Shown here one piece after another: positions 33,141 to 39,946 of a stretch of 64,000 nucleotides of DNA. Numbering within the stretch: position 1 is the stretch's first letter; each line of letters begins with the position of its first letter. Both the position numbers and the translations under genes were made by a program. The stretch covers positions 124,001 to 188,000 of the forward strand of contig NZ_FQWQ01000006.1 in NCBI RefSeq assembly GCF_900129725.1, read 5' to 3'. Below the pieces are notes generated by a model that was not told the DNA's origin, did no database searches, and was given only the letters and a program-made list of their open reading frames with translations. This stretch comes from Chryseolinea serpens (GTDB lineage Bacteria > Bacteroidota > Bacteroidia > Cytophagales > Cyclobacteriaceae).

Positions 33141-34871
33141 TTATGAAAAAATCTCCAAACGCTCAGCCCACGCCAACCCATTCGGCAATTCCTGCGCATT
33201 GAATTCCAGATGGATCACCCTCCGGTGCTTCGGACTGGTGGCTCTGGAAGAGGCGTGCAACACCAACGGCTTCATCAAATGAATGCTACAGGCCTTCACT
33301 TCGCAAACATGCGGAATGCTGTTTTGGGTGATCAACGCGATGTCGTTGTCGGATAATTTTTTCTGGTGCGATCCGGGCACGATCTTCAGTGCGCCGTTCG
33401 TTTCGTCGGCATCGTCCAAATGGATTCTTATGGTGATCGTGTCTTTCAACACCTGTTCCGGTGGGCAAACGCCGTGGTCGCCGGCTTTTTTTGTCCAGGC
33501 TGTGAAGCCTTCGGTTTCTATTTTTTCTTTTACGTGAATAACAATGTCCTGGTGCCAGGTGACATACCAATTCGATTCCGGCGTCTTGTCAAAAAAAATG
33601 GCTTTGGTGAGAAACAGGTTTGGGTTTATTTCCTTTAAGATAGCCGTCAGATTCGTGTTGAAGAGCAAGGGTTTCAGTTCGGGCAACTCGCGCAAAAGAT
33701 TTCGAATGGCGTGCGCATCCTCCGCTGGACGGCTTTTCAGATACATGTGAAGTTTCGAGCCAATGGCATTCACCTCCCGTTTGCTGAACACATGATGCAT
33801 CACCGACGATCCTTTGTAAATGACCTTGTTGATCTGATTTTGCAACGACCCCCGGTTGAATTCGAATTGATACTGATCCAACGCCTCTCCCAGGATGTCG
33901 CGAATGCGTCGCTTCAGTTTTTCGGGTGCCAGAATTTTTATGCGGTTGCCAAAGCCGAGGATCTCGCGCTCCAATTCAAAATTGATCTGGACCTGCAGCG
34001 AAAACACTACGCCCGTGGAAAGCTTCTCCTCCACTTTTTGCGAATGATGAATGGGCTTGGTCACAATGTAGGGAGCCGTTTCGTGGTCGGCGTGCAGCAG
34101 CACTTTTTCGGTCCTTCCATCCGGGTTCACCGAAACGCCTACCACGTGGTGGAAGAAACTGGAAATGTTGAAGTCTGTTGCCGGCACATATTTCACCGGG
34201 CTCTCATCGATGCTCACGATGCGATCCAGGGCCAGGTTTAGGATCGGCGTGTTCCGCTTCTTAACACCGAGCACAAACCAACGGTTGCGGTATTCTTTCA
34301 GGCAATAGGGATGAAAAACAAAAGTGTTCGCACTCCGTGCTTTAAAGGACTGGTAACAAATCTCGACCGCGCGTTTCTTGAGGATCGTATGATACAACGC
34401 GTCGATGTGCTCTAATCCTTTCAGGTTGTCATTCTTCTCAAAATCGATCACCGGCTCCTGGTTGGTCTTTGCCGCGTCGATCTTGTTTTCCAGCCGCTGC
34501 ACCATGCCGCTCAATTCCTGGAAATGACTGAAGCCTTTGAACTGCCGCAGAATCTCTACCACTTCAGTCAATTTGCCCAGGTCCTGGTCGGTCAGTGGAA
34601 TGTTGGTGATGGAGTATTCGGGGTCTTCATAGGTATAGAATTTCTTTTCCAGCACCACAATCGGCGCGTTATATCCCAGCTTGTCGCTGCGCATCAGCTG
34701 GATATCCATTTGCACGGTCCGCCGGCTGACGCCCTTGTCGATGCCCTCATATTCATAGAGTGTTTCGGAGCAGGCATCAATCAAATCCTCCAGCGTCCAA
34801 CGCCGCTGGCGGTTTTTGAGACAGGCATCGATGGTGCGAAAACGAATGAGGGCGTTGCGGTTGACCGGCAT
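33141..34871 (-). CDS. WYL-domain transcriptional regulator fused to PhyH-type Fe(II)/2-oxoglutarate dioxygenase
   Basis: 576 residues. An HTH region (about 5-65, DKGVSRRTVQMDIQLMR) is followed by a WYL domain (about 155-335; SFKARSANTFVFHPYCLKEY, RNRWFVLGV) that ends with the family-typical helical ending near 335. A phytanoyl-CoA dioxygenase-like domain covers about 355-576 with the metal triad His440 and Asp442 (TWHQDIVIH) and His539 (VLHASSR), and Arg550/Arg551 (PKHRRVIHLEFN) for 2-oxoglutarate. The reading frame is open across the junction. WYL domains bind ligands, often nucleic acids or nucleotides; the oxygenase half might modify or sense one. I set the start at 34871. An inverted repeat upstream is shared with the RNA/slipin/rtcB region. 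Confidence 0.88.
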   Translation of the reverse strand: MPVNRNALIRFRTIDACLKNRQRRWTLEDLIDACSETLYEYEGIDKGVSRRTVQMDIQLMRSDKLGYNAPIVVLEKKFYTYEDPEYSITNIPLTDQDLGKLTEVVEILRQFKGFSHFQELSGMVQRLENKIDAAKTNQEPVIDFEKNDNLKGLEHIDALYHTILKKRAVEICYQSFKARSANTFVFHPYCLKEYRNRWFVLGVKKRNTPILNLALDRIVSIDESPVKYVPATDFNISSFFHHVVGVSVNPDGRTEKVLLHADHETAPYIVTKPIHHSQKVEEKLSTGVVFSLQVQINFELEREILGFGNRIKILAPEKLKRRIRDILGEALDQYQFEFNRGSLQNQINKVIYKGSSVMHHVFSKREVNAIGSKLHMYLKSRPAEDAHAIRNLLRELPELKPLLFNTNLTAILKEINPNLFLTKAIFFDKTPESNWYVTWHQDIVIHVKEKIETEGFTAWTKKAGDHGVCPPEQVLKDTITIRIHLDDADETNGALKIVPGSHQKKLSDNDIALITQNSIPHVCEVKACSIHLMKPLVLHASSRATSPKHRRVIHLEFNAQELPNGLAWAERLEIFS

Positions 34872-34908
34872 ATCGGAACATATTTTCCGAAAAGATGGCA
34901 AAAATTAT

Positions 34909-34935
34909 CATCTACGCAAAGAGATTGCGTAGATG
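34909..34935. promoter_or_regulatory. Inverted-repeat operator upstream of WYL-PhyH gene
   Basis: Perfect 11-bp arms (CATCTACGCAA and TTGCGTAGATG) with a 5-bp centre, 37 bp before the start codon. The core CTACGCA-N7-TGCGTAG recurs at 36363-36383 with one mismatch. Probable autoregulatory site. Confidence 0.6.
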
Positions 34936-36177: not shown

Positions 36178-36362
36178 TAACGTTTTAGTTATGACAAATA
36201 ACTGCGTTCCCACTGCAAATTTCTTTCAGTTCAGCCCAGCGGCTAAAACTTGGTAACGATTGGGCTGTCGGCCAAAATCATAAAAAGCCAATCCAACGGA
36301 TCCGCACGAGTCAATCGGCGGCTCCGAAAAGACTTTTCTAAAAAAAATTGAATTGTTTTTTA

Positions 36363-36383
36363 CTACGCAAAAAGACTGCGCAG
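36363..36383. promoter_or_regulatory. Second copy of the WYL-gene operator, before the tRNA-like RNA region
   Basis: CTACGCA-N7-TGCGCAG. Over 31 aligned bases (from CTACGCA to the CCTC that follows) it agrees with the site at 34912 at 26 positions, far beyond the palindrome alone. A possible -7 element CACCTTTG follows at 36392-36399. It lies between the divergent LamG gene and the first tRNA-like RNA. Confidence 0.55.
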
Positions 36384-36470
36384 ATGGCCCTCACCTTTGA
36401 TTCATCATTTACGCGGAGTGATAGCGGCTTCAAAGCGGCCCTCTTCCACAACAGTGGAAGGGGTTTATTG

Positions 36471-36683
36471 GGTCTTGTAGCTTAAAAGGAAAAGCCTGCG
36501 GTAAAAGTAGATCGCACCGCAGTGTGCCGGGATGATTCCGTTATGGCTGCGCGCTATAACGGATAGAATTTGTCCCGATAGCTATCGGGACACCGAAATA
36601 CCACTCGGAGAAGTAAAGTAGGGAAGCGCATTTAGAGCCCGGCTGCCCGCAAGGGAATCCCGGTTCGAATCCGGGGGAGGCCA
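36471..36683 (+). ncRNA. tRNA-like RNA with separated 5' and 3' halves (long insert)
   Basis: 5' part: acceptor strand GGTCTTG (36471-36477), then TA, D-arm GCTT-AAAAGGAA-AAGC (36480-36495) and an anticodon-like stem CTGCGG/CCGCAG (36496-36501, 36517-36522) with a 15-nt loop. The 3' part, about 115 nt further on, has a small stem CCC-GCAA-GGG (36646-36655), T-arm CCCGG-TTCGAAT-CCGGG (36659-36675), acceptor strand GGAGGCC (36676-36682) and discriminator A. The acceptor strands pair at six of seven positions with two G·U. Between them lie two hairpins, 36538-36562 and 36571-36592. No CCA and no 7-nt anticodon loop, so it is unlikely to be a working tRNA. Confidence 0.5.
36571..36592. repeat. 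Perfect 22-bp palindrome
   Basis: TGTCCCGATAG followed at once by its reverse complement. The core CCCGATAGCTATCGGG is, in my recollection, a frequent intergenic palindrome in Bacteroidota. Here it lies inside the insert of the split tRNA-like RNA, so it may have been inserted there. Confidence 0.7.
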
Positions 36684-36864
36684 CAAAATGTTCATTGAAT
36701 TAAAAATTGACGTCCGCCTGGGCGGATAAAAGATCTTCTCTCCGGCCGAAAGTCTGGAGGAAGCGCGGAAAAAACTAAGCAGAAGACCAGATGAGAGTTT
36801 CTGTATAGCTCCATAGTACTGTGGCCCGGCCACAGCATGCTGCTTCGCTGATGTTGTTTTCCAC

Positions 36865-36929
36865 CTTGCGTGTCGAAGGTTCGAATCCTTCTCCGCCCCG
36901 GCGGATAGCTCAGTCGGTAGAGCAGCAAT
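36865..36929 (+). ncRNA. Permuted tRNA-like RNA module (Y-RNA-like tRNA mimic)
   Basis: The 3' half of a tRNA precedes the 5' half. In order: anticodon-stem strand CTTGC (36865-36869), variable loop GTGTC, T-arm GAAGG-TTCGAAT-CCTTC (36875-36891), acceptor strand TCCGC, tetraloop CCCG (36897-36900), acceptor strand GCGGA (36901-36905), T8-A9, D-arm GCTC-AGTCGGTA-GAGC (36908-36923), A26, stem strand GCAA (36925-36928). The elbow residues G18-G19, T54-T55-C56, A58, G15 and C48 are all present. The acceptor end is thus closed by a loop while the free ends leave through the anticodon stem, the topology of bacterial Y RNAs such as YrlA. An ordinary tRNA call fails, since no 3' half follows. Confidence 0.75.
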
Positions 36930-37275
36930 CCATGGACTAAAAATCCATACTTGTTGAAAGAAGCCGGTCACTTCTTTAAAAAAAACGACCGCCATACAGA
37001 AAGCAACGACTGGCAAACCGGTTCACCCTTCTTCGGAAGGATTGAACAATCGGCCAGAAGCTTGTGAGGGCGAGGATACCGCACAGGATCGTTCGCGTAC
37101 TTTTTTGCAAAGATTCTTTCCGAGTCCTTCTCTTTTGCGGGATAGGTCAAGAAATCTCTTCAAAAAACTATCCGCCCGAAAATGTTTGCTCGCCGAGCTT
37201 CGGTTACGGCGAGCGCTCAATCGCTCTTCCGCTTCTGGAAGATGGTTTGCGGGTCGCGGCTTTCTTTTTAAATGA
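36930..37275 (+). other. Structured non-coding stretch before the slipin gene
   Basis: No coding signal. It begins with the hairpin ATGGA-CTAAAAA-TCCAT (36932-36948) directly after the permuted tRNA-like module. A long hairpin with UUCG tetraloop follows at 37010-37057 (CCTTC-TTCG-GAAGG core), then a stem GCGGGATAG/CTATCCGC at 37137-37175 and a GC-rich hairpin GCTCGCCG/CGGCGAGC at 37188-37214. It could be a leader of the slipin mRNA or one or more separate RNAs. No clear terminator lies before the slipin gene. Confidence 0.5.
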
Positions 37276-37305: not shown

Positions 37306-38406
37306 ATGAAAAGGATCAGGATCAACACCGGCTACATCGGCCTGGTGTTCAAAAATGGCAACTACAAAAACGTGTTGACCGAGGGTGCATATTGGCTGTC
37401 GTTCAGCGAAACCGTCATGTTCTACGACATGACCAAGCCCTTCCATCCTTCCCTGGAACTGAACATCCTGTTGCGCGATCAGGCGTTGGCCGATTTGCTA
37501 ACCGTTGTGGAAGTGATGGATGCAGAGATCGCCCTGCACTATGAAAACGGAAACTTCAAAAGCGTGCTGATACCCGGACGCTACGCCTTCTGGAAAGGTG
37601 TGGTCGACTACACTTTCGTGAAAGCCGATTTGAGCAAAATCGAGATCACAGAAGATATCAACATCAACACCTTGATGCGAAAAGAAGTACAGCCCTACAT
37701 CCGCGTGTTTGCCGTGGAGTCGTATGAGAAGGGTATCCTGCTCATCGACGGAAAGCTGACAAAGGTGTTGGAAACCGGCGTATACTTCTTCTGGAAAAAT
37801 GCCGTGGTCGTCACCGTATTGAAAGCCGACTTGCGTCAATTGCAAATGGAGGTTTCCGGTCAGGAGATCCTGACCCGCGACAAGGCCGGGCTGCGTTTGA
37901 GCTTCTTTGCGCAATACAAAGTGGTAGACATCCTCAAGGCGCTGATCGAGAACAAAGATTTCGAAAAGCAATTGTACGTGATCATCCAACTTTGCTTGCG
38001 TGAATTTGTAGGAACGCTTTCGCTGGATGAGTTGCTGGAAAAAAAGGAATCCATCGGCGCCTACATGCTGGAGTCGTTGAAAGACAAGGCGGCTGCATTG
38101 GGTATCGAAGTGCGCGACTGCGGCGTGAAAGACATCATTTTGCCCGGCGAAATGAAAGAAATCATGAACCAGGTGCTGGTGGCCCAGAAAAAAGCCGAAG
38201 CCAACGTCATCATGCGTCGTGAAGAGACCGCCTCGACACGCAGCTTGCTGAACACGGCCAAGTTGATGGAGGAGAACAGCATGCTGTTCAAGTTAAAAGA
38301 AATGGAGTACGTCGAAAAGATCGCCGACAAGATCAACACCATCTCGTTGTCAGGTGGCAACCAGGTCATCGATCAGTTGAAAGACATCTTCGTGCCCCGC
38401 AAATAA
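37306..38406 (+). CDS. Slipin-like SPFH/band-7 protein
   Basis: 366 residues. The N-terminal half has two repeated beta segments (GNFKSVLIPGRYAFWK... and GKLTKVLETGVYFFWK..., each followed by a KADL motif). A band-7/SPFH core (about 185-300, with LTRDKAGLRLSFFAQYKV and GIEVRDCGVKDIILPGEM) and a helical oligomerisation tail follow. There is no N-terminal membrane anchor, unlike stomatin or typical slipins, so it may be soluble or peripheral. SPFH proteins form large rings at membranes. It is encoded upstream of rtcB copy 2 with its own terminator between them; an RNA-repair link is inferred from position. Confidence 0.88.
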   Translation: MKRIRINTGYIGLVFKNGNYKNVLTEGAYWLSFSETVMFYDMTKPFHPSLELNILLRDQALADLLTVVEVMDAEIALHYENGNFKSVLIPGRYAFWKGVVDYTFVKADLSKIEITEDININTLMRKEVQPYIRVFAVESYEKGILLIDGKLTKVLETGVYFFWKNAVVVTVLKADLRQLQMEVSGQEILTRDKAGLRLSFFAQYKVVDILKALIENKDFEKQLYVIIQLCLREFVGTLSLDELLEKKESIGAYMLESLKDKAAALGIEVRDCGVKDIILPGEMKEIMNQVLVAQKKAEANVIMRREETASTRSLLNTAKLMEENSMLFKLKEMEYVEKIADKINTISLSGGNQVIDQLKDIFVPRK

Positions 38407-38452: not shown

Positions 38453-38539
38453 TATTGCGATCGCCAAAAACGTCAATCAAACAAAAAGCGGCGTGACAAA
38501 CATTTTAAGTCCGCTCGTCTTCTTAAATTCACATTGAAA

Positions 38540-39946
38540 ATGATACTCAAAGGAAACGATCTTAAAAAAATAGGATACACAGAGGGCAAAGTGCTTGGCC
38601 TTGCGTTGACCATTATTGAAAAAGAATATGCCACATTGCTACCGGCCGATCAGCTTGCCTTGCTGCAACACGTGAAGGACGATCCCGCAGGCTATGTCCA
38701 TCATGAAAAGCTCTCGCCCCTGGCAACAGAAATGCTGAAACCCGCCGATGCAACGCTCGCGCTGGAACCCCACGGCAAGCCCTATAAAATATACGGCGCC
38801 GAAGCCATCGAAGAATGCGCTATACAGCAAATGGACATTGCGTCCAGGTTGCCCATCACCGTTGCCGGTGCCCTCATGCCCGATGCGCATCAAGGTTATG
38901 GACTTCCCATCGGCGGCGTGCTGGCCACCAAAAATGCGGTGATCCCCTATGGTGTTGGGGTGGACATTGGTTGCCGGATGTGCCTGACCCTGTATGACCT
39001 GCCGGTGACGATGCTGGAGGACGATAAAGAAGCTTTGAAAAAAATGCTGGTCAATAACACCATGTTCGGGCAAGCCACTTTTAAACGGCCAAAGGATCAC
39101 GCCATCTTCGAGCGTGACGAGTTCAGTGACATCGCGGTGGTGAAAGGCTTGAAAGACAAAGCGTGGAGACAGATCGGTTCGTCCGGTGGCGGAAATCACT
39201 TCGTGGAATTCGGCATCGTAGACATTCCATCCGTTGCCGATGCGTTGGGCCTGCAACCCGGAAAATATCTGGCGTTGCTTTCGCACTCCGGCTCCCGTGG
39301 TTTGGGGGCCACCCTGGCCGGTCATTATACAAAGATCGCCATGGATGTTTGCAAACTTCCCCAGGAAGCCAAACACCTCGCGTGGCTTGACCTCGACACG
39401 GAGGCTGGCCAGGAATACTGGCTCGCGATGAACCTGGCGGGCGACTATGCTTCGGCATGTCATCACCAGATCCATGAACGGATGGCCGTGGGGCTGCGTT
39501 CGAATCCGCTGGTGATGGTGGAGAACCACCACAACTTTGCCTGGAAGGAACAAGATGCCTCTGGCGAGGAAGTTATCGTTCACCGTAAGGGCGCCACTCC
39601 CGCAGGCAAGGGAGTGCTCGGCATTATTCCCGGATCCATGGCCACACCAGGATTTATTGTGAGGGGAAAAGGTGTATCGACATCAATCAATTCGGCATCG
39701 CATGGTGCGGGCAGACTGATGTCGCGGACCAAGGCAAAACAAACGATCTTGCCAGGCCATGTCAACAAAGTGCTGAAGGCAGCCGGTGTGGAATTGATCG
39801 GTTCGGGTCTTGATGAAGCACCCATGGCCTATAAGAATATCCACGAGGTGATGGCCTCCCAGCACGAATTGGTAGACGTTTTAGGGACGTTCATGCCAAA
39901 AATCGTGAGGATGTGCGGCGATGAAAGATTCAAAGAAGTGGACTAA
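38540..39946 (+). CDS. rtcB: RtcB-family RNA ligase, copy 2
   Basis: 468 residues from ATG 38540 (a TTG 6 bp earlier is less likely). All ligase segments are kept: DAHQGYG, GVDIGCRM, GGGNHFVEFG, SHSGSRGLG, VENHHNFAW, VHRKGATPA, ASHGAGRLMSR with the guanylated His and MAYKNI with the C-terminal Lys. It aligns with copy 1 over its full length, with the most differences in the first 60 residues and around 170-195. It follows the slipin gene and the tRNA-like RNAs, so this copy is the better candidate for a dedicated RNA-repair or RNA-circularising role. It has a strong terminator of its own. Confidence 0.93.
   Translation: MILKGNDLKKIGYTEGKVLGLALTIIEKEYATLLPADQLALLQHVKDDPAGYVHHEKLSPLATEMLKPADATLALEPHGKPYKIYGAEAIEECAIQQMDIASRLPITVAGALMPDAHQGYGLPIGGVLATKNAVIPYGVGVDIGCRMCLTLYDLPVTMLEDDKEALKKMLVNNTMFGQATFKRPKDHAIFERDEFSDIAVVKGLKDKAWRQIGSSGGGNHFVEFGIVDIPSVADALGLQPGKYLALLSHSGSRGLGATLAGHYTKIAMDVCKLPQEAKHLAWLDLDTEAGQEYWLAMNLAGDYASACHHQIHERMAVGLRSNPLVMVENHHNFAWKEQDASGEEVIVHRKGATPAGKGVLGIIPGSMATPGFIVRGKGVSTSINSASHGAGRLMSRTKAKQTILPGHVNKVLKAAGVELIGSGLDEAPMAYKNIHEVMASQHELVDVLGTFMPKIVRMCGDERFKEVD

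Follow-up and report, generated by a model that had tools for sequence, protein, structure and literature searches.

The closest described counterparts of the RNA reported here are the bacterial Y RNAs, the circularly permuted tRNA genes and the TrcR regulon of Anabaena, which we summarise according to the excerpts of the cited articles that we draw on. YrlA of Salmonella (Rfam family RF02553; structure 6CU1, cited in PMC8394870) is built in the order T-arm, acceptor hairpin and D-arm and forms a tRNA elbow, an order and an elbow shared with the RNA of this study. Bacterial Y RNAs, including YrlA, bind Ro60 and PNPase and are modified by DusA and TruB (PMC8394870), and in some bacteria they occur in an operon context with RtcB (PMC7790460, PMC8394870). 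Hughes et al. suggest that the tRNA-like domain of YrlA may act as a competitive inhibitor of an anticodon nuclease; as YrlA fragments went undetected in Salmonella, YrlA is not considered a substrate of the nuclease there (PMC7790460). Permuted pre-tRNAs mature via a bulge-helix-bulge junction (PMC3978253). The Anabaena regulator TrcR represses rtcB together with a slipin gene and a backup tRNA operon, and translational stress raises all of them (PMC10272220). Among the titles, abstract openings and excerpts covered, we found no account of slipin-linked Y-like RNAs, which Chen 2014, Burroughs and Aravind 2016 and Sim 2020 may mention.

We analysed a stretch of 64,000 nucleotides from the 8.36-Mb genome of Chryseolinea serpens (C3:124001-188000, hereafter the window). 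On its forward strand, a permuted tRNA-like module (36866-36928) was identified by its fold, a topology pattern finder, a match to RF02553 and covariation. The module is encoded in the order T-arm, 3' acceptor strand, 4-nt loop CCCG, 5' acceptor strand, TA and D-arm. The T-arm (GAAGG-TTCGAAT-CCTTC, 36875-36891), recognised by the finder and in the aligned copies, is followed by the acceptor-stem hairpin of 5 bp with the 3' strand first (TCCGC(CCCG)GCGGA, 36892-36905), by T8-A9 (36906-36907) and by the D-arm GCTC-AGTCGGTA-GAGC (36908-36923). A helix resembling an anticodon stem, TTGC (36866-36869) with GCAA (36925-36928), closes the module. All the module elements named by the initial annotation are thus in place, and the minimum-energy fold of the 65 nucleotides is exactly this permuted structure. 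The fold energy of the module alone was dropped as evidence (z -1.3, with 23 of 200 shuffles equally stable).

The finder matched the 64-kb window once on both strands together and none of five mononucleotide shuffles. As for ordinary RNA annotations, ARAGORN found no tRNA or tmRNA gene, and Rfam at its cut-offs gave no match in the window. The initial annotation had proposed a check with Yrl covariance models, and its outcome was divided: the RF02553 model matches positions 36854-36951 with 45.2 bits and an E-value of 1.3e-8, but below the gathering cut-off of 69 bits. Because this cut-off was reached in none of 118 genomes, it is not diagnostic here; with 38.1 and 32.1 bits, the Ro-linked Y RNAs encoded in this genome rank below the window RNA.

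To the right of the module lie, on the same strand, genes for a Band-7/SPFH (slipin) protein (37306-38406, PF01145) and for the RNA ligase RtcB (38534-39946, PF01139). For comparison, we collected the best 80 loci of the downstream slipin gene, all of which belong to the phylum of the window owing to the choice of query; the closest named relatives among the matches listed are Chryseolinea and Chryseosolibacter with 80-81% identity. The pattern finder located the module 150-800 nt upstream of the slipin gene and on its strand in 73 of these best 80 Bacteroidota loci, and in two of the seven module-less loci the upstream region is cut off by a contig end. Of the 72 loci with enough sequence, 50 have RtcB downstream within 2.6 kb and in the same orientation, and 22 lack it in that interval. 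Two records titled Thalassobius and Rickettsiales (L034 and L057) carry a Bacteroidota-like slipin locus and are probably mis-binned contigs. Ten stretches of viral contigs fit a pattern for RtcB, none of which was confirmed.

The matches of the finder are concentrated in the slipin leaders, with 128 against 44 in 1.70 Mb of other sequence on both strands, and fell from 165 on the real forward strand to four on reversed sequence. We aligned 59 of 62 module-1 sequences (58 distinct) as alignment A1, excluding L033, L063 and L081, in which the closing stem is off the usual spacing, an exclusion that favours the alignment. Nineteen of 20 pairs in A1 showed two-sided changes, including all six pairs of the acceptor helix (helix 3), amounting to 281 cells where shuffles gave 83, and the covariation signal was lost when the partner columns were slid by 1-3 positions. 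T54, T55, C56 and A58 occur in all 59 aligned copies, partly imposed by the finder.

Since the finder demands pairing of the T, acceptor and D stems, only the closing stem and the tertiary 15-48 pair are unbiased, and because of the selection behind A1 both were recounted on all 62 copies. The closing stem forms 4 bp at the exact tRNA spacing, namely 5 nt before the T-stem (the variable loop) and 1 nt after the D-stem, in 49 of the 62 copies, compared with a mean of 19.6 and a maximum of 28 in 1000 partner shuffles. The 15-48 pair is formed in 60 of the 62 (G-C in 49, A-U in nine, U-A in two, other in two). From the covariation of these two elements, we conclude that the RNA folds like a tRNA elbow. 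The initial annotation had asserted selection on the fold, which is not derivable from one sequence, and had proposed aligning the locus in related Cytophagales; in the homologues the paired positions covary, both in A1 and in the recount. The permuted module is confirmed as real and under selection, and its permuted tRNA-like fold and its linkage to slipin and RtcB are nearly certain. Compared with the same-genus genome G001, the leader is approximately 88% identical and the slipin gene approximately 89%, so that the leader is not better conserved than the gene; the acceptor stem is altered yet kept.

The same data bear on the reading that the modules are degenerate tandem tRNA genes whose permuted look arose by chance. 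Real tRNA genes are frequent at these loci, and both RF02553 and our RNA model R1 also match tandem arrays of ordinary tRNA genes. However, 122 of the 169 T-arms found in leaders continue into an acceptor hairpin and a D-arm, as opposed to 38 of 268 ordinary tRNA genes located elsewhere, and the closing stem and the 15-48 pair covary, leaving this reading with a practically negligible probability. As tandem tRNA genes were matched too, the phylum-wide tally of R1 (282 of 296 genomes) was dropped as a count of permuted modules.

The initial annotation had also considered the module as a substrate that the neighbouring RtcB could circularise, that is, a permuted pre-tRNA or an RNA joined into a usable tRNA or a circular RNA. 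The order of the parts resembles permuted tRNA genes, and the acceptor measures 7-8 bp in 40 of 123 modules, some of which have full anticodon arms. Nevertheless, the acceptor has only 5 bp here and fewer than 7 bp in 83 of the 123 modules, which makes this reading unlikely. Inspection by eye found no bulge-helix-bulge junction motif in the window module, and in some last modules a Leu-like D-arm is paired with another anticodon (also by eye). The splicing endonuclease EndA is not known in bacteria, which also counts against it. The proposal found no support, and we regard it as very improbable.

Many relatives carry more than one module. Strict parsing of 81 loci (the best 80 listed and the window) gave two modules in 41, three in two, one in 30 and none in eight; hence at least two modules are present in 43 of the best 80 loci, and the window has one. 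The last modules of such series commonly continue into an anticodon arm: a perfect 5-bp stem with a 7-nt loop, starting 1 nt after the D-stem as in tRNA, is present in 27 of 43 last modules and absent from 16, compared with one of 43 first modules and six of 30 single modules at the same position. In alignment A2, made of 31 of 36 last modules without L023, L031, L036, L049 and L073 (arm displaced or absent), all five stem pairs of the arm covary; the unselected counterpart of the A2 arm count is 27 of 43.

The 34 anticodon-like loops have a pyrimidine at position 32 without exception, U at 33 in 32 and a purine at 37 in 32, with varying triplets (GUU in seven loops and CAG in three, besides CAU, UUG and numerous others). 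Half of the loops (17 of 34) are identical to loops found among the 287 real tRNAs of these loci, where 2000 column shuffles gave 7.5 on average and never more than 16; the other 17 have no such counterpart. Of the 16 mimic loops with G36, 14 have G37, whereas real tRNAs mostly combine G36 with A37 (45 against 21). These arms suggest nucleases acting on anticodon loops as putative partners of the RNA.

The window retains a possible trace of this architecture. Downstream of the module lies a hairpin resembling an anticodon arm (ATGGA-CTAAAAA-TCCAT, 36932-36948, forward strand), which is probably the leftover of a second module without T-arm, acceptor and D-arm, judging from the same-genus genomes G002 and G003, which have two modules each. 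G001, of the same genus, has the same reduced form as the window, with the arm loop CTTTAAA. CTAAAAA is not known as a usual anticodon loop. In several loci (L020, L024, L027, L028, L031, L037, L051 and others), the first anticodon arm is often succeeded by another one similar to ATGGACTNAAAATCCAT, in most cases with an NAA triplet, and the CTAAAAA arm of the window may be of this kind.

As the initial annotation had noted for the window, no Ro60/TROVE gene lies near the RNA; the sole TROVE match of the genome (C10:3267286-3267984) is on another contig. This Ro60 locus (C10:3265500-3268214; L150, L193 and L194) encodes at least two permuted Y RNAs with four occurrences of a Ro-stem motif, GUAG...UACUUCG, and a permuted module of these Ro-linked Y RNAs scores 63.2 bits with R1. 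The motif occurs in all 16 loci of Ro-type Y RNAs (11 genomes, all but G170 covered by the TROVE search), from which it was itself read off, and in none of 74 slipin leaders.

We searched 98 genomes for the slipin gene; 14 control genomes represented other phyla in our searches, and the RNA models were run within the phylum of the window. The slipin gene was found at E 1e-60 in 15 of the 98 genomes, our own included, and in 12 of the 15 an R1 match at E 1e-13 lies directly upstream. In G026, the module and a partial slipin gene are on different contigs, and in G103 the slipin gene starts at a contig end; in G099 the slipin gene is present and no strong R1 module match was obtained. TROVE was found in three of the 15 slipin-bearing genomes (G000, G002 and G007) and not in the other 12. 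Ten other genomes have R1 matches at E 1e-13, eight of them with TROVE; the matches in G085 (88 nt long) and G104 (102 nt) probably represent tandem tRNA genes. This split of the R1 matches between TROVE genomes and slipin genomes argues for two related kinds of RNA, the Ro-linked Y RNAs and slipin-linked RNAs that would need no Ro60.

These results weigh on the reading of the window RNA as a canonical bacterial Y RNA, with Ro60 encoded elsewhere acting in trans and tethering PNPase, as for bacterial Rsr. The TROVE gene on contig C10, the shared permuted fold, a common palindrome (see below) and the RF02553 match speak for it. Yet the Ro-stem motif, present in every Ro-type locus that served as its source, is missing from all 74 slipin leaders, and TROVE is missing from 12 of 15 slipin-bearing genomes; the window RNA is therefore not a canonical Ro Y RNA in our judgement, and we consider this reading quite unlikely. 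The Y-RNA-like mimic proposed by the initial annotation survives in its topology, tRNA elbow and RtcB linkage, but not as a canonical Ro-binding Y RNA. With respect to the features of the Y RNA family, the RNA has the permuted module, and we found no Ro stem, no adjacent TROVE gene and no score at the Rfam cut-off.

The RNA extends beyond the module. A 5' domain of the same RNA (GACCnGAUGAGnGUUUCUGUAUnGC ... CAUGCUGCUU, 36785-36845, forward strand) is conserved in sequence, its pairing not being counted; its candidacy as a homologue of the Ro stem was ruled out by the motif test on the 74 leaders. Downstream, comparison of leaders revealed an H-type pseudoknot (36958-36991, forward strand) with an AAGAAG/CTTCTT stem, in which the loop CGGTC (36965-36969) pairs with GACCG (36987-36991). 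A candidate hairpin is present in 59 of the 74 leaders and absent from 15, and its loop forms at least 4 bp with downstream sequence in 58 of the 59, against a mean of 29.1 and a maximum of 39 in 500 partner shuffles (counted initially on 44 of the 59 candidates and then on all 59).

A terminator-like U-tract (CTTTCTTTTT, 37247-37268, forward strand) ahead of the slipin gene may mark the 3' end of the RNA. The evidence from the terminator scan is weak, since four such sites were found on both strands of the window where 2.0 were expected. A similar U-rich tract is visible by eye in several relatives, and a strict script placed a terminator after the RNA in only four of 79 loci.

The position of the RNA admits the main rival to our reading, that of a cis-acting leader whose modules control slipin-rtcB, for instance by auto-regulation in which anticodon-loop cleavage and resealing by RtcB would set how much downstream mRNA survives. 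In those 73 of the best 80 loci, the module shares the strand of slipin and precedes it by 150-800 nt, and the anticodon arm is the part of the modules closest to the mRNA. Opposed to it are the U-tract, which may end the RNA before slipin (weak, as above), the related modules at Ro loci, which are Y RNAs without this slipin gene, and the divergent WYL regulator and a palindrome, which already suggest transcriptional control. On balance, a cis-acting leader appears possible though rather unlikely.

The WYL-domain regulator, with a C-terminal PhyH domain, is encoded on the reverse strand (33141-34901, domain match), divergent to the RNA. Its homologues occur upstream on the opposite strand in 36 of the best 80 slipin loci. 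In the window, the WYL/WCX regulator is fused in one frame to the PhyH (phytanoyl-CoA dioxygenase-like) domain, and in 10 of the 36 slipin loci with a WYL match, that match has a PhyH homologue next to it. WYL regulator homologues also lie near TROVE genes in three (L144, L147 and L149) of the eight TROVE loci L142-L149. Within 5 kb upstream of slipin, tRNA genes show a strong strand bias: in the 57 loci with at least 4.9 kb of upstream sequence, ARAGORN counted 114 on the slipin strand against four on the opposite strand, some of which may be pieces of the modules themselves. At least one such gene is present in 30 of the 57 loci and five or more in six. In L039, L055, L065, L070 and L077, arrays of 13-18 tRNA genes with many anticodons stand nearly all upstream of slipin and are reminiscent of the Anabaena backup trn operon.

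An operator-like palindrome, ACTACGCAAAAAGACTGCGCA (CTRCGCA-AAAAGAC-TGCGYAG, 36362-36382), was found by a genome search upstream of the window RNA and also at the Ro60 and RlaP loci, and a motif search found a variant (CTACGCAAAGAGATTGCGTAG, 34912-34932) next to where the WYL gene starts. With up to two mismatches, the genome has seven sites (reversed control, none): one lies at the window RNA, the Ro60/Y RNA locus holds two (one before TROVE, the other just after the Y RNAs and ahead of an ORF), one precedes an RlaP pair, and the remaining three adjoin proteins without a Pfam repair match. The RlaP pair (PF10127, 'RNA repair pathway') follows directly after the palindrome at C3:96287 (L195), a placement which suggests a common RNA-repair regulon. 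The motif is present 200-2500 nt upstream of slipin in 21 of the 81 slipin loci. Among 16 relatives, it was found with at most one mismatch in eight (controls, none) and was absent at this threshold from eight, including the slipin-bearing G013, G020, G026 and G081. In six of the eight relatives with sites, one lies approximately 90-640 bp upstream of the RNAs (G001, G002, G003, G015, G016 and G039) and not so in G007 and G040; in G002 another palindrome lies ahead of TROVE.

Between the palindrome and the permuted RNA, alignment A4 and RNA model R2 outline a further tRNA-like RNA (36470-36686, forward strand), probably a separate one, whose parts follow the canonical order and for which Rfam gave no match over its cut-off. 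It comprises an acceptor (36471-36477 with 36676-36682, six of seven pairs formed in the window), a D-arm, a hairpin resembling a variable arm and a T-arm (36659-36675); a large conserved insert (GUAAAGUAGGGAAGCGCAUUUAGAGCC) replaces the anticodon arm. The 7-bp acceptor covaries in 15 homologues, each pair being formed in 14-15 of them. The core was found in 13 of the best 80 slipin loci, and R2, which was built partly from the same genomes, matches 12 of 98 genomes; its nine strong matches all lie less than 1 kb from a permuted module, either Ro-linked or slipin-linked. This RNA, the palindrome, the pseudoknot, the leftover arm and the tandem modules with anticodon arms of the relatives all go beyond the initial annotation, which missed the last of these because they are not visible in the window alone.

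The best reading, by analogy, is that the slipin-linked RNA would work like a YrlA-type tRNA mimic within an RNA-repair regulon. In full, we lean modestly towards a Y-like tRNA mimic that is independent of Ro and belongs to an RNA-damage regulon; it would be made upon tRNA damage and act as a decoy or sensor. The tRNA-shaped modules would bind enzymes acting on tRNA, likeliest nucleases that cut anticodon loops; RtcB would reseal the cut tRNAs, and slipin would keep the machinery at the membrane. For the mechanism itself, decoy or sensor, our confidence stays somewhat short of even. The reading is favoured by the covariation, including the closing stem and the 15-48 pair, by the arms at the anticodon position, by the linkage to RtcB and to tRNA genes on the slipin strand, by the recurring palindrome, by the Anabaena regulon and by the suggestion of Hughes et al. 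Speaking against it are the undetected YrlA fragments of Salmonella, the reduced second module of the window with its unusual loop, the 16 last modules that lack a perfect arm, the 17 loops unmatched among real tRNAs and the G36-G37 preference, the 22 loci lacking RtcB nearby and the seven lacking a module, the palindromes next to proteins without a repair match or missing from relatives, the case of G099, and a leader conserved no better than slipin. A wider proposal, which we consider speculative and rather improbable as a whole, is that of a Ro-independent RNA class of tandem permuted tRNA mimics, whose anticodon loops would bait nucleases and report tRNA damage, within one WYL-controlled regulon together with Ro60/Y RNA, RlaP, RtcB, slipin, backup tRNAs and the second canonical-order tRNA-like RNA.

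Since the tRNA-like domain is kept, often duplicated and armed, in genomes of which 12 of 15 are without Ro60, a role of its own is to be expected. The role of the tRNA-like domain of bacterial Y RNAs can be tested here, where the modules adjoin RtcB, and a Bacteroidota RNA-repair regulon may link Ro60, RlaP, RtcB, slipin, backup tRNAs and a WYL regulator.

In comparison with the described systems, the circularly permuted tRNA genes of algae and archaea place the 3' half before the 5' half as does the window module (PMC3978253, as excerpted); unlike them, the window RNA is bacterial, its kind is often tandem, and it has no 7-bp acceptor (5 bp with a 4-nt loop). The Salmonella rsr-yrlBA-rtcBA operon with RtcR (PMC7790460, likewise) combines a Y-like RNA with RtcB as the window locus does, which differs in having no Ro60, no RtcA among the nine window neighbours scanned, and instead slipin, the WYL regulator and the palindrome. 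The Anabaena TrcR regulon (trn, rtcB and slipin) unites backup tRNAs, rtcB and slipin, mirroring the linkage at the window, under a different regulator; the main text of the article (PMC10272220) uses neither 'tRNA-like' nor 'Y RNA'. The Ro-linked Y RNAs on contig C10 share with the window RNA the permuted module and the palindrome at the locus, but they carry GUAG...UACUUCG and adjoin TROVE. Compared with YrlA, the slipin-linked RNA has no Ro-stem motif, is without Ro60 in 12 of 15 slipin genomes and scores under the Rfam cut-off; unlike YrlA, it is distinguished by tandem modules, an anticodon arm, a pseudoknot and its linkage to slipin.
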